Virus record (IMG/VR): IMGVR_UViG_3300009285_005118
Span: 1 to 29,919 of that record
Source of the DNA: a virus
Strand: one strand, 5' to 3'
Length of the DNA: 29,919 nt
Shown here: positions 17,432 through 29,919 of the stretch, piece after piece
Layout: each line of letters begins with the position of its first letter
Position numbering within the stretch: the first letter of the stretch is position 1
Made by a program: the position numbers and the translations under genes
Notes under the pieces: generated by a model
The model's input: the letters and a program-made list of their open reading frames with translations, nothing else
Database searches by the model: none
Told to the model about the DNA's origin: nothing

Positions 17432-18442
17432 ATGGCTATACCACTCGGGAACTTTGTCTCGACTACGACTCGCCAGCGGTTTTTCAACAAAGCCGTTGAC
17501 AATGCGTATACAGGCAACACCCTATTCGCACGCCTTCGTGCAACCGCTCGCCCGTGGTCTGGGGGTCGTCAGATAACCCAGGCGCTCATCGTGAGCAACC
17601 GCACGCAGGCCAGTTCATTCTCATCGTTCGACCTGCTCCCCACCACACAGGAAGACGTGCGCCAAATGGCGAGCGCCGACCCGGCCGAGTACGCATCCGA
17701 CCCCATCACCTTCTCTGGTATCCAGTTGGCGGTGAACAAGGGACCTGAAGCGTTCCTCGACGCGATGGCTACGGAGTTCTCTGACGTTGCCCGCAACCTT
17801 GCTGAAGAGATAGGGGCAGACCTCTACCTCGACGGCACCAGCAACACCAGCAAGGCTATTAACGGCCTTGCGTACCAAGTAGACGACGGCACCTCCGTTA
17901 CTACTTGGCAGGGACTCTCCCGCACCACCTACGCGAACCTCAACTCCACCCGCACCGCCCAATCGGGTGCCCTTGGTTTTGACGACCTCGCTACCGACTC
18001 CGACGCAGCGCAGCGCGGTAACGACGCTCCGAACCTTATCGTAACGACCCCCGCGGTCTTCTCGATAATCGAGCGCCTCGTTACCCCGACGTTGTATATG
18101 AATTACAACGGCCCCAGCTCTTCCGCGGGAACTGCCGCTGGTGAGCGTTCTGGTAATGCGCTTAACTTCGGCGCAACCCAACTCTCTTGGCGCGGTATGC
18201 CCATCATCCAAGACGAGATGTGCACCTCGGGCAACATCTGGACGCTCAACACCAACCACCTCCACCTCTATCAGTTGGATTACACCCCTGAAGTAGCGGA
18301 GTTTAGCAAGGAAGGGTTTGCGTTCACGGGCTTCAAGAAGTCGCAAAACCAGGCTGCCGTGGTCGGGCACCTGCTCTGGGCGGGTCAGTTGTGGGGTGAC
18401 GCTCCTCGTACTCACGCACGCCGCACTGGTGTTACCAGCTAA
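17432..18442 (+). CDS. Major capsid protein (HK97-fold type)
   Basis: The 336-aa protein follows the scaffold. Characteristic elements are the N-arm TTTRQRFFNKAVDNAYTGNT, SGGRQITQAL, the E-loop-like region with DPITFSGIQLAVNKGPEAFL and the long spine helix ATEFSDVARNLAEEIGADLY. LDGTSNTSKAINGLAYQVDD and PNLIVTTPAVFSIIERLVTP form the A-domain pattern seen in phage capsids, and WRGMPIIQDEMC…WTLNTNHL the closing strands. Codons are noticeably GC-rich compared with the early region, as expected for a highly expressed gene. Confidence 0.88.
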   Translation: MAIPLGNFVSTTTRQRFFNKAVDNAYTGNTLFARLRATARPWSGGRQITQALIVSNRTQASSFSSFDLLPTTQEDVRQMASADPAEYASDPITFSGIQLAVNKGPEAFLDAMATEFSDVARNLAEEIGADLYLDGTSNTSKAINGLAYQVDDGTSVTTWQGLSRTTYANLNSTRTAQSGALGFDDLATDSDAAQRGNDAPNLIVTTPAVFSIIERLVTPTLYMNYNGPSSSAGTAAGERSGNALNFGATQLSWRGMPIIQDEMCTSGNIWTLNTNHLHLYQLDYTPEVAEFSKEGFAFTGFKKSQNQAAVVGHLLWAGQLWGDAPRTHARRTGVTS

Positions 18443-20014: not shown

Positions 20015-20482
20015 ATGGCTGAATTTGATTTTGCGATGTTGGTGAAGAGTAACTTTAGCTTCACCACCACATCGAGTTCCACCTCAACTTCGACGAGTAC
20101 CTCGACTTCGACATCTTCGACTTCGACCTCATCGTCCACAAGTACGTCTACCTCAACCTCGAGTTCTTCGTCGTCAACGACCAGCTCGTCTTCGACATCA
20201 ACCTCGACGACGACTACTTCGAGCACCTCAACTTCGACTAGCTCGTCTTCGACGAGCACGAGCACGAGTAGTTCAAGTACTACAAGCACGTCAACTTCTT
20301 CTACTTCTACTTCTACGTCGACAACGACATCGAGCACTTCGTCCACGACGACGACCAGCTCAACGTCTACATCAACGACCAGTACCAGTACGACATCTTC
20401 GTCTACGACATCGAGTTCGAGTTCGACCACTACCACGTCATCAAGCACGACCTCCTCGTCGTCTTCGACGACGACCGCGTAG
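20015..20482 (+). CDS. Ser/Thr-only low-complexity (mucin-like) protein
   Basis: The 155-aa protein has a 16-residue head (MAEFDFAMLVKSNFSF), then 138 residues (17-154) that are exclusively Ser or Thr, then a final Ala. All six Ser and all four Thr codons are mixed, so the DNA is not a simple tandem repeat; the amino-acid composition is what is kept. Such tracts are extended and usually O-glycosylated when a suitable transferase is present. It lies at the end of the head block just before a strong terminator. A virion surface stalk or spacer is plausible. The long opposite-strand frame here is a composition artefact. Confidence 0.72.
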   Translation: MAEFDFAMLVKSNFSFTTTSSSTSTSTSTSTSTSSTSTSSSTSTSTSTSSSSSSTTSSSSTSTSTTTTSSTSTSTSSSSTSTSTSSSSTTSTSTSSTSTSTSTTTSSTSSTTTTSSTSTSTTSTSTTSSSTTSSSSSTTTTSSSTTSSSSSTTTA

Positions 20483-20500
20483 CCCTGTTCTGTTCCTAGG

Positions 20501-20530
20501 CGCAACAGCCCGCTTCGGCGGGTTTTTGCG
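20501..20530 (+). terminator. Strong intrinsic terminator
   Basis: CCCGC 20509-20513, loop TTCG, GCGGG 20518-20522, followed by TTTTT (20523-20527). The outer CGCAA 20501-20505 can also pair with TTGCG 20526-20530. A UUCG tetraloop with a GC stem and T-run is a textbook terminator closing the head operon after the Ser/Thr gene. Confidence 0.92.
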
Positions 20531-20532
20531 TA

Positions 20533-20549
20533 TGATATAATCACAATAT
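20533..20549 (+). promoter_or_regulatory. Extended -10 promoter TGATATAAT, near-leaderless
   Basis: TG at 20533-20534, N, and TATAAT at 20536-20541 stand 8 nt before ATG 20550, only 5 nt after the terminator T-run. The predicted +1 at 20548-20550 gives almost no leader. No -35 is visible since the terminator occupies that place. Confidence 0.65.
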
Positions 20550-22211
20550 ATGAAAAAGTGTAGGCCAACGGTTAGTGTTATTTTAGCTGGAGTTAGTTTA
20601 GGGATATTATTAACTCCTGTTACTGCGTCTGCTACATTTTCAGTGGGGTGGAACGCAACCTCGACTGCAACTGCGTGGATTTCTCCAAACTATGTCAACG
20701 GAATAATTCAGGCTGTAAGGGCTAACTTCTTTATCGCAACCTCAACCACCGCTTCCAGTTTTGCCGGTGGCCTCACCTCCTACGCCTCCTCGACCATCGG
20801 CAATGGGACGCAGGCGGGTGGTTTGACTATTAGCGGAGGGGCTACGACGACGGGAAATATGTTAGCACAAGGTACACTTAATGTTACTGGTTCCGCTACC
20901 AACGCCAACCTTTTTGTGGTCAATGGAACACAAACAGACACGACGGGGATACAGACTAATGCTCCAGTCGTTTTCAGTCCTACGGTAGACGAGCAAAGTG
21001 GGGCGGCATCAGTTGGTATTTTTCGTTTTGTCCCAACGATTAATATGACGAGCGGTAGTACTATCGTTACTGTGTTCAATAATAACTACACGCTTGGACT
21101 TGGTTCAGGTAATATAACTAACCTCAATTCCATGCTCATTACTCCAGTTTTTGGTTCAACATATACAGGAACTGTTACCAACGTCATTGGTCTTAGTCTT
21201 CCCACCCCATCCTACTTATCAGGAAGTGTAACTAACTTTCTTGGAGTATCTATTGGAGCTAATTCCGTTGCGTCATCTTCAGTGGGGTTGGCTGTGGGCG
21301 ACCTTACAAGCGAAGTGAATAATACCAGTATCCTTACAGGACAGTTAGTCCTGCCTACAGGCGATTGGGACACCTATTTTGCCGCTAACTATCCTGCTGG
21401 ATTTATCGCAACTTCAACCGGAACTACGGGAGATAAAATCGTCCTCAAATCCACCCGTGCTGCACAAGCGTCTGGGAACTTAATGGGTGGTATTGCGTTT
21501 TGGAGTGACGATACAAACTTAACTGCACCGGGTACTAAAGTGGCGGGGCTACAAGCTCTCACTACTCAAACTCACACCGCCTCAGCGCTTGGAACCGCGC
21601 TTACGTTCACTACTACTCCAAACTCATCTATCGTACCTGCCGAAGCGATGCGGATTGACCAAAACGGTTACGTCGGCATCGGGACGACGAGTCCTGCGAC
21701 AAAGCTCGATGTGAACGGCACTATCACACAACTTACGGTCAAATCCTGCACTCTAGGACTCACGACAGACGACCTTGGGAGTATTACAGGTTGCGTAGCT
21801 TCTGACCAAAAGCTCAAAAAAAATATCAAACCACTCACCTCCGCACTCACTACACTCCTCAAACTCAACCCCGTCTTCTATGATTGGAAAGATACGAAGG
21901 TGAGGGACACCCAGAACCATGCGGGATTTGTGGCGCAAGATGTAGCTAAGGTATTTCCGCAAGCAGTGGTAAACGCAGGAACTAACCTGAAAGGAGTGGA
22001 TGCAAACGCTATCGTTTCACTTGCGGTGCGCTCTATTCAAGACTTCTACAAACAATTTACGACGTTTGTGCAACATCCCGTTTTTGGGACACCCGCGCGA
22101 CCGACAGGAATCACACTCTACGATGACATGGATGGAACTCCGTACTGCATACGCATCCACGCAAAAGAATTCCTAAAGACAGCTGGAGAGTGCTATGGAT
22201 ACACAAAATAG
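20550..22211 (+). CDS. Secreted fibre-like protein with C-terminal S74 chaperone domain
   Basis: The 553-aa protein begins with a Sec signal peptide: basic MKKCR, hydrophobic VSVILAGVSLGILL, then A26-S27-A28 as signal peptidase I site. Next are repeats rich in ATSTT, ASSTIGNGTQAGGLTISGGA and beta-strand units, then GIGTTSP at 376-382 with KLDVNG. The C-terminal intramolecular chaperone of the S74 family starts S418-DQKLKKNIKPL, with NPVFYDWKD and HAGFVAQDV; it trimerises fibres and autocleaves in phage tailspikes. The signal peptide is unusual for a virion fibre and points to display on the host cell. It has its own promoter right behind a terminator, as in phage morons. The repeat style matches what I know of Parcubacteria surface proteins. 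Confidence 0.8.
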   Translation: MKKCRPTVSVILAGVSLGILLTPVTASATFSVGWNATSTATAWISPNYVNGIIQAVRANFFIATSTTASSFAGGLTSYASSTIGNGTQAGGLTISGGATTTGNMLAQGTLNVTGSATNANLFVVNGTQTDTTGIQTNAPVVFSPTVDEQSGAASVGIFRFVPTINMTSGSTIVTVFNNNYTLGLGSGNITNLNSMLITPVFGSTYTGTVTNVIGLSLPTPSYLSGSVTNFLGVSIGANSVASSSVGLAVGDLTSEVNNTSILTGQLVLPTGDWDTYFAANYPAGFIATSTGTTGDKIVLKSTRAAQASGNLMGGIAFWSDDTNLTAPGTKVAGLQALTTQTHTASALGTALTFTTTPNSSIVPAEAMRIDQNGYVGIGTTSPATKLDVNGTITQLTVKSCTLGLTTDDLGSITGCVASDQKLKKNIKPLTSALTTLLKLNPVFYDWKDTKVRDTQNHAGFVAQDVAKVFPQAVVNAGTNLKGVDANAIVSLAVRSIQDFYKQFTTFVQHPVFGTPARPTGITLYDDMDGTPYCIRIHAKEFLKTAGECYGYTK

Positions 22212-22231: not shown

Positions 22232-23362
22232 ATGATTACGCTATCAGCAACAGGCACAGTAGACGGTTCAAATAAAGATTTTAGTTTTGTTAGTGCACCT
22301 GACTTCATCAACGTAGATGATGTCATCATACAAAAAACCTCCAGCGACGGCACCGTAAACTGGACAGGCACAATATCGGTTACGTTAACCATTGCTCCCA
22401 CTTTCTTTATCGAAGGGTATGGAAGTGCAAACTACCAAGTACCTACTGGGGCAGTAGACGGCTCAAATAAAGACTTTACTTTCGTCTCCGAACATGACCG
22501 TATAGTCGTAGATAATATCGTCTTCGAGAAGGTATCGAGTGACGGCACTGTAAATTGGACTGGTACAACAACTATATCTCTCACGATTGCTCCTAACTTT
22601 GATATTTTTGGATACGACTCTGTTCCAGTTACTACGACATCATCCTCTACAAGTACCTCCACCAGCTCCAGTACCACCTCAACAAGTTCAACGACCACTA
22701 CAAGTACCTCGACGAGCACATCAACCTCGACTTCCACCTCTACATCGTCCTCAACGACCTCCTCGTCGTCTTCGAGCACTTCTACGTCTACAACATCTAC
22801 ATCAACTAGCACGTCATCAAGCACTAGTTCGTCAACTACCTCTTCAACCACAAGTACAACGACTTCCACCTCGTCAAGTACTTCTTCAACCACCTCGTCG
22901 TCAACAAGCACCACAACTACCTCAACAACTTCAACTTCCACCTCCTCTTCCACCACCACATCAACCAGTACAACAACCTCCTCTACAACTTCGACGACTA
23001 CTTCCACCTCTACCACAAGCACGTCGACAACAACTACCAGCACTACATCCTCTTCAACCTCAACCACTACCTCGTCTTCGAGCTCGACCACAACGTCGAC
23101 ATCTTCTACATCCACATCCACAACTTCAACTTCATCAAGTACCTCGACCAGTACAAGCAGTTCCTCTACCTCTTCCTCCACTACCACAGGGCCACCGACT
23201 ACAACTTCTTCCTCTACAACTAGTAGCACTTCAACTAGCACTACCACCTCGACTTCGAGTTCTTCGACAACAACCCAATTTGTTGAACCTGTTATTGCCC
23301 CTAGATTTATCCGCAGTATTCGTCTACGAGATGGTACGAGAATACAAGTAGGAATTCCTTGA
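22232..23362 (+). CDS. Duplicated beta domain with long Ser/Thr mucin-like tract
   Basis: The 376-aa protein has two tandem copies of a roughly 65-residue domain. Copy 1 (about 5-68) has TVDGSNKDFSFVSAPDFINV and TSSDGTVNWTGTISVTLTIA; copy 2 (about 71-131) has AVDGSNKDFTFVSEHDRIVV and VSSDGTVNWTGTTTISLTIA. Residues 134-348 are then Ser/Thr, interrupted only by G320-P-P322. The 28-residue tail ending RSIRLRDGTRIQVGIP is beta-like. There is no signal peptide, so it is most likely a virion (tail or head fibre) component in which a receptor or attachment domain is set on a glycosylatable stalk. It starts 20 nt after the fibre-like gene; the start lacks a Shine-Dalgarno. Confidence 0.72.
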   Translation: MITLSATGTVDGSNKDFSFVSAPDFINVDDVIIQKTSSDGTVNWTGTISVTLTIAPTFFIEGYGSANYQVPTGAVDGSNKDFTFVSEHDRIVVDNIVFEKVSSDGTVNWTGTTTISLTIAPNFDIFGYDSVPVTTTSSSTSTSTSSSTTSTSSTTTTSTSTSTSTSTSTSTSSSTTSSSSSSTSTSTTSTSTSTSSSTSSSTTSSTTSTTTSTSSSTSSTTSSSTSTTTTSTTSTSTSSSTTTSTSTTTSSTTSTTTSTSTTSTSTTTTSTTSSSTSTTTSSSSSTTTSTSSTSTSTTSTSSSTSTSTSSSSTSSSTTTGPPTTTSSSTTSSTSTSTTTSTSSSSTTTQFVEPVIAPRFIRSIRLRDGTRIQVGIP

Positions 23363-23375: not shown

Positions 23376-24701
23376 ATGTGTGCAATTTCTGGAAGCCATG
23401 TTGAGGAAGAAGTAAAAGAAATGCTCGCAGTGACGCGGTATCGTGGCCCCGATGAAGTAGGAATATCCACACACGGAGGCTTTACTTTAGGAATGGCAAG
23501 GCTCAAGATATTAGATACGGTATCAAGCGGCTTGTGTCCTATTCAAGATGAAAACTACACCCTTGTATTCAATGGAGAACTCTATAATTATCTTGAACTA
23601 AAATATGAGCTTGAAGAGTTGGGTGAAAAGTTTATTACAACGGGTGATAGCGAAGTGCTCCTCAAAGCCTATAAACAATGGGGAAAAGACTGTCTTGATA
23701 AGTTTAATTTCATGGGAGCGTTCGCTATCTCCAATGGAGAAACAGTCTTTATAGCAAGAGATATTGCGGGAGAGAAACCGCTCTATTACACGGAGCGACC
23801 CTTCCGATTTGCCTCCGAAGCCAAAGTATTTAATTATGACTGTGGGGAGTTTTCCCCCGCTCACTACGGAACCTACGAAATTCGCACCAGAACACTATCG
23901 CTCCACCAGTGGTGGAACCCTCCAATACGTCAACGGAATGTTAATTTGGAAACCGCAGTCAAAGAACTCGACATACTCCTTGGCGACTCAGTTCGACTTC
24001 GCACCCGCTCCGATGTCCCCTACGGTCTCTATTTCTCTGGAGGAATTGACTCAACACTTATTTCCACCTACCACAACTTCGAGCACCAATTCACCTACCA
24101 CGACGAAAAGTACGCCGCCAGAGACTTCAAAGAAACCTTCCCTAAAATCCTCTACCATCTCGATTACCCCGTCAAAACCTTCTCGCCATTCGGTCTCTGG
24201 AAGCTCGCGGAAGAAGCCTCAAAAAAGGTAAAAGTAGTTCTTTCAGGAGAAGGAGCGGATGAGTTGTTCGGCGGTTATGTACGCTATGTCCCAAATGAGT
24301 TCAATCGAAAAGCCAGAGAGATATTTCCTTCCTACACGGCTCTCTTCCCGTACAAAGATATGCTCACGGAAGAGTTCAATGGAAATATGCGAGAGTTATT
24401 ACGCATGGGCGACCGCATGGCCGCCGCACATTCTCTCGAAAACAGATGCCCGTTTCTTGATAGGAGAGTTATCGAATTTGCCATGCGTCTGCCTTTGGAA
24501 CTCAAAATCCAAGGGTACGAAACAAAAGTAGTCCTCCGCGAACTTTTAAAGAAAAGAAAACCCGACTATCAGTTTGAAGAAAAGGCGGGTTTGTTTTGTT
24601 CTGTAAATTCTTGGCTAGGAGAAAGCAACCCCTACGACAAAAAAGTGTACACTGAGTATCAGCAAAAACTATGGAAACAGAATATCCTTGCAAACAGGTA
24701 G
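23376..24701 (+). CDS. Asparagine synthetase-like glutamine amidotransferase
   Basis: The 441-aa protein has the class II amidotransferase N-terminus with catalytic Cys2 (MCAISG), R23-GPD26 and FNGELYNYLEL. The synthetase half has the PP-loop S221-GGIDS226 and G291-EGADELFGG300, followed by HSLENRCPFLDRRVIEFAM. It would hydrolyse glutamine and use ATP to amidate a carboxylate. It is shorter than AsnB (about 550 aa), and in glycan clusters similar enzymes amidate uronic acids rather than make asparagine. This location beside sugar genes and the dehydrogenase at 7254 favours the latter, an inference. Predicted leaderless transcript. It overlaps the next gene by 31 nt. Confidence 0.9.
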   Translation: MCAISGSHVEEEVKEMLAVTRYRGPDEVGISTHGGFTLGMARLKILDTVSSGLCPIQDENYTLVFNGELYNYLELKYELEELGEKFITTGDSEVLLKAYKQWGKDCLDKFNFMGAFAISNGETVFIARDIAGEKPLYYTERPFRFASEAKVFNYDCGEFSPAHYGTYEIRTRTLSLHQWWNPPIRQRNVNLETAVKELDILLGDSVRLRTRSDVPYGLYFSGGIDSTLISTYHNFEHQFTYHDEKYAARDFKETFPKILYHLDYPVKTFSPFGLWKLAEEASKKVKVVLSGEGADELFGGYVRYVPNEFNRKAREIFPSYTALFPYKDMLTEEFNGNMRELLRMGDRMAAAHSLENRCPFLDRRVIEFAMRLPLELKIQGYETKVVLRELLKKRKPDYQFEEKAGLFCSVNSWLGESNPYDKKVYTEYQQKLWKQNILANR

Positions 24702-25270
24702 AAATAAGGTGCGACGACGTTCTACTCCTGAACAACCTCACGGGGTCGATGAAGAACTCGCTCCGCTACAACTCCTTCTTCGGGCATTTTCTTTTATTCG
24801 ACAAGTTTCTTGAAGACCACAACCTCTATTGTATTCTCACGGTCATGGCAGAAGGAATCGCCGCTTACCCTGAGTGGATGCAGTACATCAAACTCCGCAA
24901 GAATCGCTACACGATAGAGTTGCACGGCTACTCTCACTACTACTACAAAGGCATGAGTGAAGAAGAAGCATACCAGTCTTTATCCACAGCAAGAGACATG
25001 ATTGAAAAAGCGTTTGATGTTAAGGTAACGAGGTGGTATGTCCCTTTCGGGAGACTCTCTTTTCCTGAGTGGGATTATCTAAAAGTATGCGAACGATTAG
25101 GACTCAAATTTCATACTCGTGGAGGGACAACAATGCACAGGTACTTCCACTATTGGAACAGCCGCTCACGCTTCCAGTTGGAGGAGTTATACAAAAAACA
25201 CCATGAGCAATTCAAGAAGGCAGATAGAGCACTGGCTCTCGACCTTGGAAATAAGCGGGTCGGTACTTGA
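24671..25270 (+). CDS. Polysaccharide deacetylase-like protein
   Basis: The 199-aa protein has the core of a CE4/NodB-like barrel. EIRCDDV gives the aspartate pair D15-D16, and ELHGYSHYYY gives H85-x3-H89, the metal-binding His pair. RWYVPFGRLSFPEWDYLKVC stands for motif 3 and LGLKFHTRGG for the last part. Such enzymes remove N-acetyl groups from GlcNAc-type sugars. It is short and lacks a signal peptide, so it may act on cytoplasmic intermediates. The ATG 24671 lies within the amidotransferase end (CTATGG), and the 3' end overlaps the next gene by 68 nt. Confidence 0.7.
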   Translation: METEYPCKQVEIRCDDVLLLNNLTGSMKNSLRYNSFFGHFLLFDKFLEDHNLYCILTVMAEGIAAYPEWMQYIKLRKNRYTIELHGYSHYYYKGMSEEEAYQSLSTARDMIEKAFDVKVTRWYVPFGRLSFPEWDYLKVCERLGLKFHTRGGTTMHRYFHYWNSRSRFQLEELYKKHHEQFKKADRALALDLGNKRVGT

Positions 25271-25754
25271 TGTGGGCGGGGCGGCGTGGCCGGTGAAAGG
25301 TCGCACAAAAACATGGGATGTGACGGACTACAAAATCCTCGACAAAAATCATACATACAAAAAAGCACCGATAGAATATATCCAAGACCTTAATCGCCCG
25401 TTTGAACTGACTGAAAAATACGATGTAGTATTTGCGATGGAAGTCATGGAGTATATGTGGAACCCGTATCAAGCGGCACTCAACTTATTTAACGCCCTTA
25501 AACCTAACGGGATTTTATATTGCTCTACTCACTTTATGTTTCCCAACCACGGGGGGGGAACTGATGTTTTTCGTATAACAAGAGAGGGAATAAATGTGCT
25601 TTTTACTTCAGTTGGGTTTAAGATTCTTGAGGTAATTCCCCGGCGGGCGGTTGAAGCATACCAACCGTTGCTCCTAGAATGGCAAAACCATGAGAGTAAA
25701 ATCTGCAAATACCCCGATGAAATAGGACATTTCTTCAAAGCTCAAAAACTATGA
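25203..25754 (+). CDS. Class I SAM methyltransferase
   Basis: The start at ATG 25203 (MSNSRRQIEHWL) gives 183 aa; the longer frame from 25119 would read deep inside the deacetylase gene. The SAM motif is GSVLDVGGAAWP near residues 20-31, followed by TWDVTDYKI, YDVVFAMEVMEYMWNPYQAA, LNLFNALKPNGILYCSTHFM. The last is the motif V-VI pattern of small-molecule or sugar methylases. Overlap with the upstream gene and ATGA coupling with the next place it in the glycan operon. Substrate unknown. Confidence 0.8.
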   Translation: MSNSRRQIEHWLSTLEISGSVLDVGGAAWPVKGRTKTWDVTDYKILDKNHTYKKAPIEYIQDLNRPFELTEKYDVVFAMEVMEYMWNPYQAALNLFNALKPNGILYCSTHFMFPNHGGGTDVFRITREGINVLFTSVGFKILEVIPRRAVEAYQPLLLEWQNHESKICKYPDEIGHFFKAQKL

Positions 25755-25963
25755 GAATAAATAAAGGGGATTTACCCAAACCAAAGAAGGGGCAAGTGTG
25801 GCGGAACAAACAAGACGGACTTGAAATCCTTATAGTTGGAACGCATGGCGACAATATGTTTCGCACGGTAAATTTGCTCAACCGAAAAATCCAACACCAC
25901 GTTACCAGAAAGACCTTTTGGCTCTACTATGACATTATGGGCACTGAATCAAAACATGGCTGA
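25751..25963 (+). CDS. Small hypothetical protein (70 aa)
   Basis: The pattern KPKKGQVWRNKQDGLEILIV, GTHGDNMFRTVNLLNRKIQH, HVTRKTFWLYYDIM resembles small phage and bacterial proteins with a "KxGQVWRNKxTGxxxxI" beta fold, of unknown role. It is basic. It starts by ATGA coupling and overlaps the next gene by 8 nt, so it lies fully inside the glycan operon. Confidence 0.6.
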   Translation: MRINKGDLPKPKKGQVWRNKQDGLEILIVGTHGDNMFRTVNLLNRKIQHHVTRKTFWLYYDIMGTESKHG

Positions 25964-26822
25964 CCTCTTCAAACTTTCCTCCTATCAGAACCCTGAAGGT
26001 CAGTTGGCTGACCGTCTCGCCCCCCGCACCGCAAAGAGGTTAGAGAACACCACATGGTTGGATATTGTCAAAAAACGCTCTGTATTAGACCTCGGGTGTA
26101 ACAATGGCTACTTTACTAGGGAAGCCCTCAAACGTGGAGCTAGGAGGGCTGTAGGGGTCGACAGGAGCCTTGCTGTGGTGGGGGCGAGGCAGTTGGCGGC
26201 CGAAGAAGGGTCAAAAGCGGAGTTTTGGCAGACCGACCTCGACTCCAAAGAATTCCGCCGTTTTTGCCCCAAATTTGAGGTGGCGTTGCTTCTGTCGGTT
26301 TTGACCCACGTAAACGACAAAGAGGAGTTTCTTGAGTGGCTTGACAGCATTTGTACCTATGCCCTTGTGTTTGAAAGTAATCATGGTGAAAAAAACAAGG
26401 CGCACATAGAACTGGTGAAGAAATACTTTTGGGTGGAATCGGTAACCGAATTTGGCGCAACCGATGTCCCAGAAAAGCCACACTACCTTTGGGTGTTGCG
26501 AAAACACAATCATCACATCCGCTACCCCGTCCTAGAGGCACAACCTGTTGAGTTTATTTCCGTAGACAAAATCACCGGCTGGGACGAACAGAGTATTTTA
26601 CAGCAGAAAACCAGGTACGATATACACTCTCCCGAGTTCCAAAAACTTAAAGAGGATATTAAAAAGCGCGGTATAAGAGAACCGCTTGGGCTGGAAGATG
26701 AAAAAGACGGACTCTACAAGGGCTTCCAGGGGGCACACCGCTATTTGGCGGCAAAACAACTCGGTTACACGTCAGTTCCATGCAAAGTCCTCCGCGGACA
26801 TGTTATCAAACACCTCCAATGA
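25956..26822 (+). CDS. SAM methyltransferase fused to ParB-like domain
   Basis: I choose ATG 25956 (MADLFKLSSYQN) over 25929, giving 288 aa. The N-terminal part is a class I methyltransferase: SVLDLGCNNGYFTREALKRG with V43, AVGVDRS, and FEVALLLSVLTHVNDKEEFL. The C-terminal 90 residues have the ParB/Srx layout: EFISVDKITGWDE, HSPEFQKLKEDIKKRGIREP, then G259-AHRYLAAKQLG and TSVPCKVLRG. The ParB-like domain binds nucleotide or acts as ATP-dependent kinase/nuclease in known families. A single chain with both in a glycan operon is unusual; it could phosphorylate or methylate an acceptor sugar or peptide. Function inferred. Confidence 0.8.
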   Translation: MADLFKLSSYQNPEGQLADRLAPRTAKRLENTTWLDIVKKRSVLDLGCNNGYFTREALKRGARRAVGVDRSLAVVGARQLAAEEGSKAEFWQTDLDSKEFRRFCPKFEVALLLSVLTHVNDKEEFLEWLDSICTYALVFESNHGEKNKAHIELVKKYFWVESVTEFGATDVPEKPHYLWVLRKHNHHIRYPVLEAQPVEFISVDKITGWDEQSILQQKTRYDIHSPEFQKLKEDIKKRGIREPLGLEDEKDGLYKGFQGAHRYLAAKQLGYTSVPCKVLRGHVIKHLQ

Positions 26823-27544
26823 AACTCTCTACAATCGTTCTAGCGTACTCTCGTCACGAAATGACCGTTCGCCATGTAGAAGAATGTCTTAAATCTACTC
26901 GCATACCCGATGAACTGATTGTGGTCAATGACGGAGGAGACCCCGCTCTCAAAGAGAAACTTCCAAAAGGAATTACTTATGCTTACATTACTGAAGATAT
27001 ACTTTGGAACTACAACGGCGCGTGCAACTTAGGATTTTGGCTTGCTTCGGGAGACATTATAGCGTTGGAAGATACCGACCATATTCCCGGAAGAGAGGTC
27101 TACGCAGACGCAGTGAAGTTTTTTGAGAACCCTGACAACAAAAACATCGAGCGTTTGGCCTTTTCACGCAACGTAATCGAACAAAGCGAACTTTCCAAAC
27201 CAATGGAAGAGTGGGTGGTGTCCCGTAACTGGGGAGCAAATGATATGGTCTCTGTAATGCGCCGTTCTCTCTATACCAGAATGAAAGGACAGGACGAACG
27301 GTTTGCAAGGAAATACGGATATTTCGCCTACGATTGGAAATACCGAATGAAGAAATTGGGCGTTAAATCTGCGAAGATACACGGCTACAACGCCATTGTG
27401 GGAGATGGGGGAGAGCCGGGACTGCAACGAGGTTTGTCCCCAAAGAATAGAAGTCTGTTGCATGAAAATGCCAACCGACCTCAAAATGACGGACAGTATT
27501 CGGGAGGTATGCTGAACTTTAACTTCACTGTAGAAACTCTATGA
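26819..27544 (+). CDS. GT2-family glycosyltransferase
   Basis: The start at ATG 26819 (ATGA overlap) gives 241 aa with MKLSTIVLAYSRHEMTVRHV as the first GT-A strand. Further motifs are LIVVNDGGDP, NYNGACNLGFWLASGDIIAL, E-DTDH (the DxD-type metal site), and DERFARKYGYFAYDWKYRMK for the acceptor region. It is a retaining or inverting GT-A enzyme with unknown sugar. It is placed directly before a second GT2 gene. Confidence 0.88.
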   Translation: MKLSTIVLAYSRHEMTVRHVEECLKSTRIPDELIVVNDGGDPALKEKLPKGITYAYITEDILWNYNGACNLGFWLASGDIIALEDTDHIPGREVYADAVKFFENPDNKNIERLAFSRNVIEQSELSKPMEEWVVSRNWGANDMVSVMRRSLYTRMKGQDERFARKYGYFAYDWKYRMKKLGVKSAKIHGYNAIVGDGGEPGLQRGLSPKNRSLLHENANRPQNDGQYSGGMLNFNFTVETL

Positions 27545-28251
27545 ACCACGTAAGTATAATTGTCGTACATTATAGTGCTATTGACGACTTTGGCGAAAAG
27601 GCGGCGGGGAAGAATCCTCCTAAACGTAGTGACCTTTTGCGTACTTGTGTAGAGTCTATAATCGCCAACACCAACTACCCAGCAGAACTCATCGTAATGG
27701 ATAACGGAGGCGACCCCGATGATTCAGACTATCTACTCTCCAAAGCAAGAGAAGGTAAACTAACCCACGTTCGTTTCCCCCAGAATATGCACTTTGCTTT
27801 TGCATGGAATCAAGGGGCAAAACTCGCCACCGGCCAGCACTTGGCTTTTGTCTGCAATGATATAGAAGTCGCACCAAATTGGCTCAACGAGTGCATGAGG
27901 ATTTTGAAAGAGAACGAGAACAAAGTAATTGCTTGCGGATTTATTACCTACGACAAACGCAAATTCACTACCGTACTCTCCAATGGAGATAGACAAAATC
28001 CACGTTCGGGAAGCAACTGTCTTGTCATCTCGCGGGAACTTTTTTATCACATAGGCGAGTGGCCGGTACACCGCATAGGGGGAACTATTTGGTACAACAA
28101 GATTTACAAGATGGGGATAAAGACGGTTGCGCCACCAAGCGACTTGGCGCATGATAGGGGTTGGCGACACGGAGTAGCGTTTAATATTCCCATAGAGGTC
28201 AAAAAGAAGTTATTAGACGGGTCGGAAGTAAGTTTCCATTTACCACAGTGA
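27541..28251 (+). CDS. GT2-family glycosyltransferase
   Basis: A 236-aa GT-A enzyme: MNHVSIIVVHYS, LRTCVESIIANTNYPAELIV, MDNGGDPDD, FAFAWNQGAKLATGQHLAFV, CNDIEVAPNWL (C-N-D-I variant of DxD). GSNCLVISRELFYHIGEWPV and IWYNKIYKMGIKTVAPPSDL close the domain. It is coupled by ATGA to the previous gene and by GTGA to the epimerase. Its metal site is the commonly seen N-D-x-E/D form. Sugar and acceptor unknown. Confidence 0.88.
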   Translation: MNHVSIIVVHYSAIDDFGEKAAGKNPPKRSDLLRTCVESIIANTNYPAELIVMDNGGDPDDSDYLLSKAREGKLTHVRFPQNMHFAFAWNQGAKLATGQHLAFVCNDIEVAPNWLNECMRILKENENKVIACGFITYDKRKFTTVLSNGDRQNPRSGSNCLVISRELFYHIGEWPVHRIGGTIWYNKIYKMGIKTVAPPSDLAHDRGWRHGVAFNIPIEVKKKLLDGSEVSFHLPQ

Positions 28252-29018
28252 GGATAATGATTACAGGGAGTGCTGGGTTCTTGGCTCAGCATTTGATACC
28301 AAAATTCCAAAATGAGGGTCATTTTGTTGTGGGGGTGGACAAACGCCCAGAACGCCACCAGTCAAACTATTTTATACAGGACGATGTGCGTAACCTGGGC
28401 TATCGGGACTTGCTCGGTATAGACGCGGTCTGTTCGATGGCGTGGCGCACTAATATCCCCGACTGCTCACGCCACCCCGAAGACTCTACCAACGACAACA
28501 TCGACATGACTATCCACCTTCTTGAGGTGGCGAAGGAGGCCGGGGTTAAAAGAGTCTTCTTCCCCTCCACCGCTTCGCTGTACGGTAACAACCCAACTCC
28601 TTGGAAGGAAGATATGCCTCCCGCCCCCATAGAACATTACTCATGGCAGAAACTTGCCTGCGAATCGGCCTGTAAAATGTACGCGCGGTCGCTTGGGCTG
28701 GACACGGTGGTGGCGAGGTTCTTTCAGATTTTCGGGGAACACCAGCGCGACGACACCGCCCTCGCCGCTTTTCTGCGGGCAAAGAAAAACGGACAACCGA
28801 TTACACTCACCGAAACCACCGCCCAGTCTTCTTTCAAAAGCGGGCAGAGGGATTTTGTGTATGCGGGAGATGTAGCTGAAGCGGTGTACTTATTGACGAC
28901 TCATCCGCATATTGGAAAAGGAGAAATCTATAATGTCGGTGGATTCGTACATTCAATGGAAGAAATTGCCACTGCTATAGGAAGTGAAGTGGTATGGATT
29001 CCCCGTCGTCCGTCCTGA
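28248..29018 (+). CDS. NAD-dependent sugar epimerase/dehydratase (C-terminus clipped)
   Basis: An extended SDR enzyme: GTG start 28248 overlapping the upstream stop, MRIMITGSAGFLAQHLIPKF with TGxxGFxxxxL, DDVRN, PSTASLYGN, then the catalytic Y131-SWQK135. RDFVYAGDVAEAVYLLTTHP and GEIYNVGGFVHSMEEIATAI follow. It acts on nucleotide sugars such as UDP-glucose or dTDP-glucose. At 256 aa it ends EVVWIPRRPS, whereas relatives continue for another 50-60 residues. The frame is broken where a leftward gene overlaps it by 44 nt, so the gene is probably truncated. Confidence 0.85.
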   Translation: MRIMITGSAGFLAQHLIPKFQNEGHFVVGVDKRPERHQSNYFIQDDVRNLGYRDLLGIDAVCSMAWRTNIPDCSRHPEDSTNDNIDMTIHLLEVAKEAGVKRVFFPSTASLYGNNPTPWKEDMPPAPIEHYSWQKLACESACKMYARSLGLDTVVARFFQIFGEHQRDDTALAAFLRAKKNGQPITLTETTAQSSFKSGQRDFVYAGDVAEAVYLLTTHPHIGKGEIYNVGGFVHSMEEIATAIGSEVVWIPRRPS

Positions 29019-29709
29019 TGTTAATGAACCTCGCGTAAGTGAACGAAGATATCTGCTGGAAGAGGGAATATTGAACCCTCGACCCGTAATACGTCGCGTC
29101 CCCGGTAAGCCCGTCCTTAACGTCCATCACGTTGCCAAGTACAAGATACCCGTTCGGCGCGAGGACGTACTTCGCCCTTAACCGCATCTGACTTGTCCCT
29201 AACTGAACGTCGAAAAGTCCAGTAAAAGAGTCCTTTGCTATATCGTAGACGAACGGTTCATCGGTAAGCGCGTCGCCTGTCATTACTATTTTTCCGTTTG
29301 AATTTGCAAAACTGAAATGCTGGTCTGCCGTTGCAAGACCTTTTTTTAACAGACGCCATACGGGTGCCGAGTCTGACGTTGAGATATAAATTCTGTCCAT
29401 AGTTGTGACAAGGAGAACTTTCTTCGTCGTTGTCCCCTGATCTAAAGATGCTCGGTAAATTGAGTTTATGGGGTGCGTTGATATCGCTTGGCCAATATAT
29501 CTGACTGACCCGTTCCGCTTGGACGCAGAACCGAAGATGTTCCCAACCATGTTTTGAGAGTCGCACGCGGCATTGTCGGCGACCTCGGTGCAGGCTTTTG
29601 CATGGTCTACCCCTTTCCCAAAGTTTATGGGACTGGTAATGCTCGTGGCGCACCATGCGGACGTTGCGCAGGACAAGACTGCAAGGATTGAGAGTTTAAG
29701 GGTTTTCAT
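28975..29709 (-). CDS. Tail-type protein with signal peptide, C-terminus probably clipped
   Basis: The 244-aa protein begins MKTLKLSILAVLSCATSAWC, a clear Sec signal peptide. The rest contains AACDSQNMVGNIFGSASKRN, GSVRYIGQ, TTKKVLLVTTMDRIYIST, GDATYYGSRVQYSLFQQISS, FTYARFINIRTDDGESI. The pattern "DSQNxx…xxxxKRNGxxRY…SRVxYSxxxxxxFxxxxFInIxxDDGExI" is that of phage tail or neck beta-propeller proteins, which continue much further after DDGExI. Here the frame stops within seven residues (PLHFL). The signal peptide is odd for a tail protein. The gene is convergent with the epimerase. Confidence 0.6.
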   Translation of the reverse strand: MKTLKLSILAVLSCATSAWCATSITSPINFGKGVDHAKACTEVADNAACDSQNMVGNIFGSASKRNGSVRYIGQAISTHPINSIYRASLDQGTTTKKVLLVTTMDRIYISTSDSAPVWRLLKKGLATADQHFSFANSNGKIVMTGDALTDEPFVYDIAKDSFTGLFDVQLGTSQMRLRAKYVLAPNGYLVLGNVMDVKDGLTGDATYYGSRVQYSLFQQISSFTYARFINIRTDDGESIPLHFL

Positions 29710-29919
29710 ATTTCAGAACAGGGAATCTTGTTTTTCTGGAAGACTCATTCAGTCTTTCGCCAACCGCCGCCCTTATCAATGGCACGGCCACAGTAGACGG
29801 TGTTCCAAACGTTTGATTCAAGGCAAGCCCGGCCCCTGCCGCGTAGCGACTTCCGACCAAACGATTTATGATTCCGGAAAACCAGCCGATAGGGATTACG
29901 TTGGCCCCCGATTTCCCTT
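29696..29919 (-). CDS. Tail-region protein, C-terminal fragment (cut by window)
   Basis: The leftward frame is open from the window end to TAA at 29696-29698, overlapping the next leftward start by 14 nt. Visible sequence: NVIPIGWFSGIINRLVGSRY, AAGAGLALNQTFGTPSTVAV, PLIRAAVGERLNESSRKTRF, PVLKYENP. It looks like a structural protein end with Gly/Ala-rich helices. The overlap with the start of the signal-peptide gene supports a leftward operon. Function not recognised. Confidence 0.5.
   Translation of the reverse strand, partial: GKSGANVIPIGWFSGIINRLVGSRYAAGAGLALNQTFGTPSTVAVPLIRAAVGERLNESSRKTRFPVLKYENP

Follow-up and report, generated by a model that had tools for sequence, protein, structure and literature searches.

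An accessory S74 fibre-like gene with a predicted signal peptide in a variable slot of a podovirus genome

Signal peptides serve to tell cell-displayed from virion proteins, and a phage gene whose product carries both a signal peptide and an S74 chaperone raises the question of where that product acts. We addressed this question for such a gene in the window, which is the whole 29,919-nucleotide stretch analysed and corresponds to an entire IMG/VR virus record (IMGVR_UViG_3300009285_005118). The sequence-only reading had described a strong terminator, an extended -10 promoter, a signal peptide and a C-terminal S74 domain, all of which are present where it had placed them, and had interpreted them as a moron-like unit behind a terminator and with its own promoter. 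From that interpretation we retain that the gene is accessory and that its S74 fibre-like product would be exported and probably act outside the cytoplasm, but not the moron-like unit.

Anatomy of the S74 fibre protein

The S74 fibre gene (20550..22211; this and the other features of the locus lie on the + strand) was defined from the open reading frame list and family matches and encodes 553 aa. Its N-terminus (20550..20627) reads as a Sec signal peptide, MKKCRPTVSVILAGVSLGILLTPVTASA, with an AxA cleavage site predicted after A26. Signal peptide prediction, a check proposed along with the original claim, was run with a crude heuristic that gave 7.02 for the S74 protein, compared with 5.2-6.7 for four standard E. 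coli signals (OmpA, MalE, PhoA and LamB) and only 4.35 for M13 g3p. The same heuristic is passed by 0.3% of shuffled N-termini and by 3 of 148 large ORFs in five control phages, one of these three being Mx8 p64. A signal-anchor instead of a cleavable signal was also considered and dropped, because the AxA site comes after the core.

The signal is followed by a fibre region of low charge and beta type and then by the S74 chaperone/protease core (aa 418-473; 21801..21968), which matches PF13884 with 62.6 bits against a gathering cut-off of 22. Its SDQKLK (aa 418-423) aligns with the catalytic motif SDxxxK, placing Ser418 and Lys423 at the conserved positions, and self-cleavage is predicted at A417/S418. 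The protein shares this C-terminal core and motif with the Peptidase_S74 family (intramolecular chaperone of endosialidase), but it differs in having a Sec signal in front and about 80 residues past the core, which include the second of two cysteine pairs (C400/C415 and C533/C548, spanning 21747..22193) that are candidate disulfides. An AlphaFold model computed without an alignment reached a pLDDT of 34 and was left out of fold searches. The N-terminal part, where a virion-docking domain would be expected, matched no family by itself, and no LPXTG, lipobox or C-terminal membrane segment that could serve as a surface anchor is visible in the protein.

A variable slot with a phage-class promoter

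Upstream of the gene lies a head operon with terminase (13359), a P22-type portal (14828), capsid (17432), a possible cement protein (18455) that scores under the curated cut-off, and two small genes, and it finishes with STS1, a Ser/Thr-repeat ORF of 155 aa (20015..20482) listed among the open reading frames and found at the same place in relatives. The STS1 stop marks the upstream border of a variable slot and is followed by an intrinsic terminator (20500..20531). The hairpin sequence CCCGCTTCGGCGGGTTTTT (20509-20527) occurs once in the window, with 0 occurrences expected from shuffles, and the segment 20496-20532 folds with -21.8 kcal/mol (z -4.7). A generic terminator scan did not pick up this hairpin, whose stem extension pairs with some of the U-tract, the probable reason for the miss. 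A hairpin straight after the STS1 stop is also found in 6 of 8 relatives (G004, where it reads ACTCCCC...GGGGAGTTTTT, L007, L008, L109, L110 and L123), the remaining two, L004 and L119, having none and the next gene beginning immediately. Several relatives likewise have a -10-like site after the hairpin: G004 has TGGTAGAAT, 7 nt ahead of an ATG, L109 has TGTTACAAT and L110 has TTGACA-16-TATAAT.

What follows this site varies. The next gene is a homing-endonuclease-like ORF in G004, a glycosyltransferase in L007, an asnB-like or deacetylase-like gene in L110 and L109, and a methyltransferase in L004 and L123, while in the window the slot holds the S74 gene and STS2 (22232..23362), a second Ser/Thr-rich ORF with two head repeats that starts 21 nt past the S74 stop and was not found at the slot in L004 or L110. 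The downstream border is formed by the asnB-like, deacetylase-like, methyltransferase, glycosyltransferase and epimerase genes (23376..29018), colinear in relatives and identical in order in the window and G004. Since the next gene differs between relatives, the hairpin and -10 pair is best read as marking where two transcription units meet, and the site as a cargo slot. PF13884, strongly matched in the window, had no match in about 70 related records searched; these records may be fragments, so the slot synteny is the better evidence of accessory nature. Judged by this synteny the S74 gene is accessory, the relatives examined carrying other optional genes or none at the slot. As a side observation, the homing-endonuclease-like ORF that apparently fills this slot in G004 (L016 1-250 and L018 4192-4388, both on the minus strand) overruns both contig ends.

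The promoter, TGATATAAT (20533..20541), begins 1 nt past the hairpin and is a perfect extended -10, with the S74 ATG (20550) 8 nt downstream and no usable -35, whose position falls within the hairpin. The transcript is expected to start at about 20548. Given this -10 spacing and an almost absent Shine-Dalgarno (-1.8 kcal/mol), a leaderless S74 mRNA is implied. The motif TGNTATAAT was found at five sites, all on the + strand, in the window and the non-overlapping part of the near-identical record G002, and 4 of the 5 sit 7-9 nt ahead of an ATG opening an ORF of 71-553 aa: g11994 (before the packaging genes), the S74 gene, a tail-module gene (L014:1259) and a further ORF (L014:9633). We estimate the chance of such spacing at about 5% per site with three allowed spacings, or about 3e-5 for four of five. 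On this evidence the S74 promoter is of the phage's own class, not that of a foreign moron. The four sites (window 11976 and 20533; L014 1243 and 9615) are apparent leaderless promoters of this phage, and a clear Shine-Dalgarno is also missing from many of its genes.

The terminator and promoter thus lose their value as a moron signature: the hairpin recurs at this border in relatives that carry other cargo or none, the promoter is phage-class, and no terminator was found between the S74 gene and STS2. The S74 gene is missing at the same site in relatives, as in a moron, but its hairpin lies upstream and is common to relatives instead of closing a unit with its own promoter. These results bear directly on the proposal that the gene codes for a surface adhesin recently captured from Patescibacteria and acts as a lysogenic moron, which we consider quite improbable. 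Its accessory position would fit, as would the ATSTT/GIGTTSP style, which we take to be common in Parcubacteria, and a capsid that resembles a TM7 phage capsid (28%), although it also resembles those of Mx8 and other proteobacterial phages; Patescibacteria would be a plausible host. Against it, the terminator and promoter are those of the phage slot, the gene's GC (0.476) equals that of the record (0.472) and the nearest homologue lies in another phage. Lysogenic expression also lacks support, as no tyrosine or serine integrase was found in the window, the near-identical record or the closest long relatives, records that may be incomplete.

Homologues and place of action

The nearest homologue found belongs to IMG/VR phage 3300036760_000440 (L002:8669-11134), with 42% identity over aa 142-368 (20973..21653) and 55% in a conserved block. 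It also has a signal-like hydrophobic N-terminus and its gene stands in a structural module, between capsid and tail adaptor, but it lacks the S74 domain, its signal is weaker (heuristic 3.5) and its portal and capsid lineage is unrelated. Genome scans with the S74 protein and with the terminase found no genomic relative, nor did the C-terminal 155 aa of the protein find relatives as a scan query.

A similar design known from cells is that of the mosaic adhesive trimer (MAT) fibres of Bdellovibrio, exported and cell-displayed S74 fibres of a predatory bacterium (PMC10769870). Their S74 subgroup combines a signal peptide, a beta fibre and S74 with SDxxxK (PMC10769870), and there is direct similarity to the fibre tip (PDB 8oml, 8on4; E 1e-10) at aa 310-395 (21477..21734). 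The window protein has a signal peptide by the heuristic, as MATs do, but it is encoded by a phage and not by the displaying cell, its gene lies between phage operons, and its host is not a known predator; the conserved post-signal MAT domain has no match in it, the PDB matches being tip fragments. An Aureispira plasmid protein likewise has signal and S74 together. Judging from these comparisons, an S74-fibre-with-signal design used by cells is here carried by a phage.

Signal-bearing fibre-like ORFs are also found in structural modules of other podoviruses, in the tail module of MW202801 (27247-28632, beside the stabilisation protein) and among distant terminase relatives (one each in L031, L082, L085 and L092, two in L081). 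In Mx8 p64 (L098 36781-37854) and Mx9 (L102 5383-6459) a conserved signal peptide is seen on a tail-fibre-type protein annotated as hypothetical protein or putative tail fiber, and the signal stands before a motif with which the tail fibres of BUCT555 and ppBjS10J-1, both unsecreted, begin. These two proteins resemble ours in being signal-bearing, fibre-like, with paired cysteines and from a podovirus with a related capsid, but they lack S74, have another N-terminal fibre motif and share no established sequence similarity with the S74 fibre. A phage fibre with a signal peptide would accordingly be unusual but not unique, which weakens the premise that tail-type fibres are never signal-bearing. 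Cys makes up 1.11% of the mature signal-bearing fibre-like proteins against 0.52% of non-signal structural proteins (Fisher p 8e-5, in a small set hand-picked by signal), as expected if the former fold in an oxidising place.

We propose, at about an even chance, that the gene encodes an exported, self-cleaving trimeric S74 fibre acting on envelope receptors outside the cell, and the protein probably works there rather than as an ordinary tail fibre. The gene would be optional cargo in a podovirus with a P22-type portal, placed in the variable slot that separates the head and glycosylation operons and transcribed from a phage-type extended -10 promoter into a leaderless mRNA. Sec would export the protein and the 26-residue signal would be removed, the S74 chaperone would trimerise it into a beta-rich fibre and be cut off at Ser418, and two disulfides would brace the product, which would most likely bind envelope receptors of infected or neighbouring cells, leading to receptor occlusion or adhesion. 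This proposal draws on a signal that equals standard ones in strength and has an AxA site, an S74 core with an intact SDxxxK, even and paired cysteines together with the high Cys of signal-bearing fibre-like proteins, the differing slot content and missing S74 in related records, and the export of S74 fibres by cells. It also agrees with the targets of DGRs, where phage ones usually lack signals and cell-displayed ones have them, to the point that lack of a signal has been used to call targets phage-borne (PMC6199706). Against it count a promoter class shared with the packaging and tail modules, the heuristic nature of the signal call, the low pLDDT and the lack of a visible anchor.

Two virion-based readings draw on the same data. 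An ordinary tail fibre made in the cytoplasm, with a hydrophobic N-terminus that serves for anchoring or insertion instead of export, would be in keeping with an S74 C-terminus matching many tail fibres and with a promoter class that also precedes the packaging and tail modules and so fits a virion protein too; we judge it unlikely, given the complete signal architecture, the paired cysteines and an accessory position outside the tail module. Somewhat unlikely, in our view, is a receptor-binding virion fibre that would first be exported, then mature either in the envelope or outside it, and finally dock on virions at lysis. The signal-bearing fibre-like genes inside structural modules (MW202801, L002) speak for this and against our proposal, the placement of the signal in Mx8 p64 and Mx9 before a tail fibre starting domain points the same way, and the tail region, as far as it is available for this phage, showed no clear spike or fibre gene. 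The gene is nevertheless missing from the closest relatives and no docking domain was recognised after the signal. To our knowledge, no tailed phage has been proven to export a fibre and then dock it on virions.

More tentatively, it is possible that Sec-exported fibres (this S74 fibre, Mx8 p64, MW202801 and several IMG/VR phages) form an unrecognised, recurrent podovirus class that folds and disulfide-bonds outside the cytoplasm and either coats the infected cell or is fitted to virions after lysis. If so, phages would export fibre-type proteins during infection, including cultured Mx8 and Mx9, giving a route by which receptors could be occluded or fibres put together outside the cell, for which Mx8 and Myxococcus xanthus offer a testable system.

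Assembly support and neighbouring genes

The S74 region rests on one contig, as G002 ends at window position 17667. Since exact matches between STS1 and STS2 reach no more than 22 bases, misassembly through shared Ser/Thr repeats was rejected as the likely source, though the junctions lie on that single contig. At the right end (29010-29919) the epimerase ORF is shorter at its end than in relatives L021 and L017 and is followed on the opposite strand by an ORF (28975-29709) whose start looks signal-like and which found no relatives as a scan query; this region probably marks an assembly join or a point of recombination.

Ser/Thr-repeat proteins (S+T up to about 90%) are conserved beside capsid genes (window 20015-20482 and 22232-23362; L007 8400-9914; L008 15254-18715), and phage-borne glycosyltransferase, asnB and epimerase genes adjoin theirs; they are possibly mucin-like glycosylated virion tails. 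The capsid gene itself is interrupted in several relatives: by a group I intron in L123 (5504-5760), by two inserts that Rfam does not recognise in L131 (6631-9196), and also in L124 and L125.
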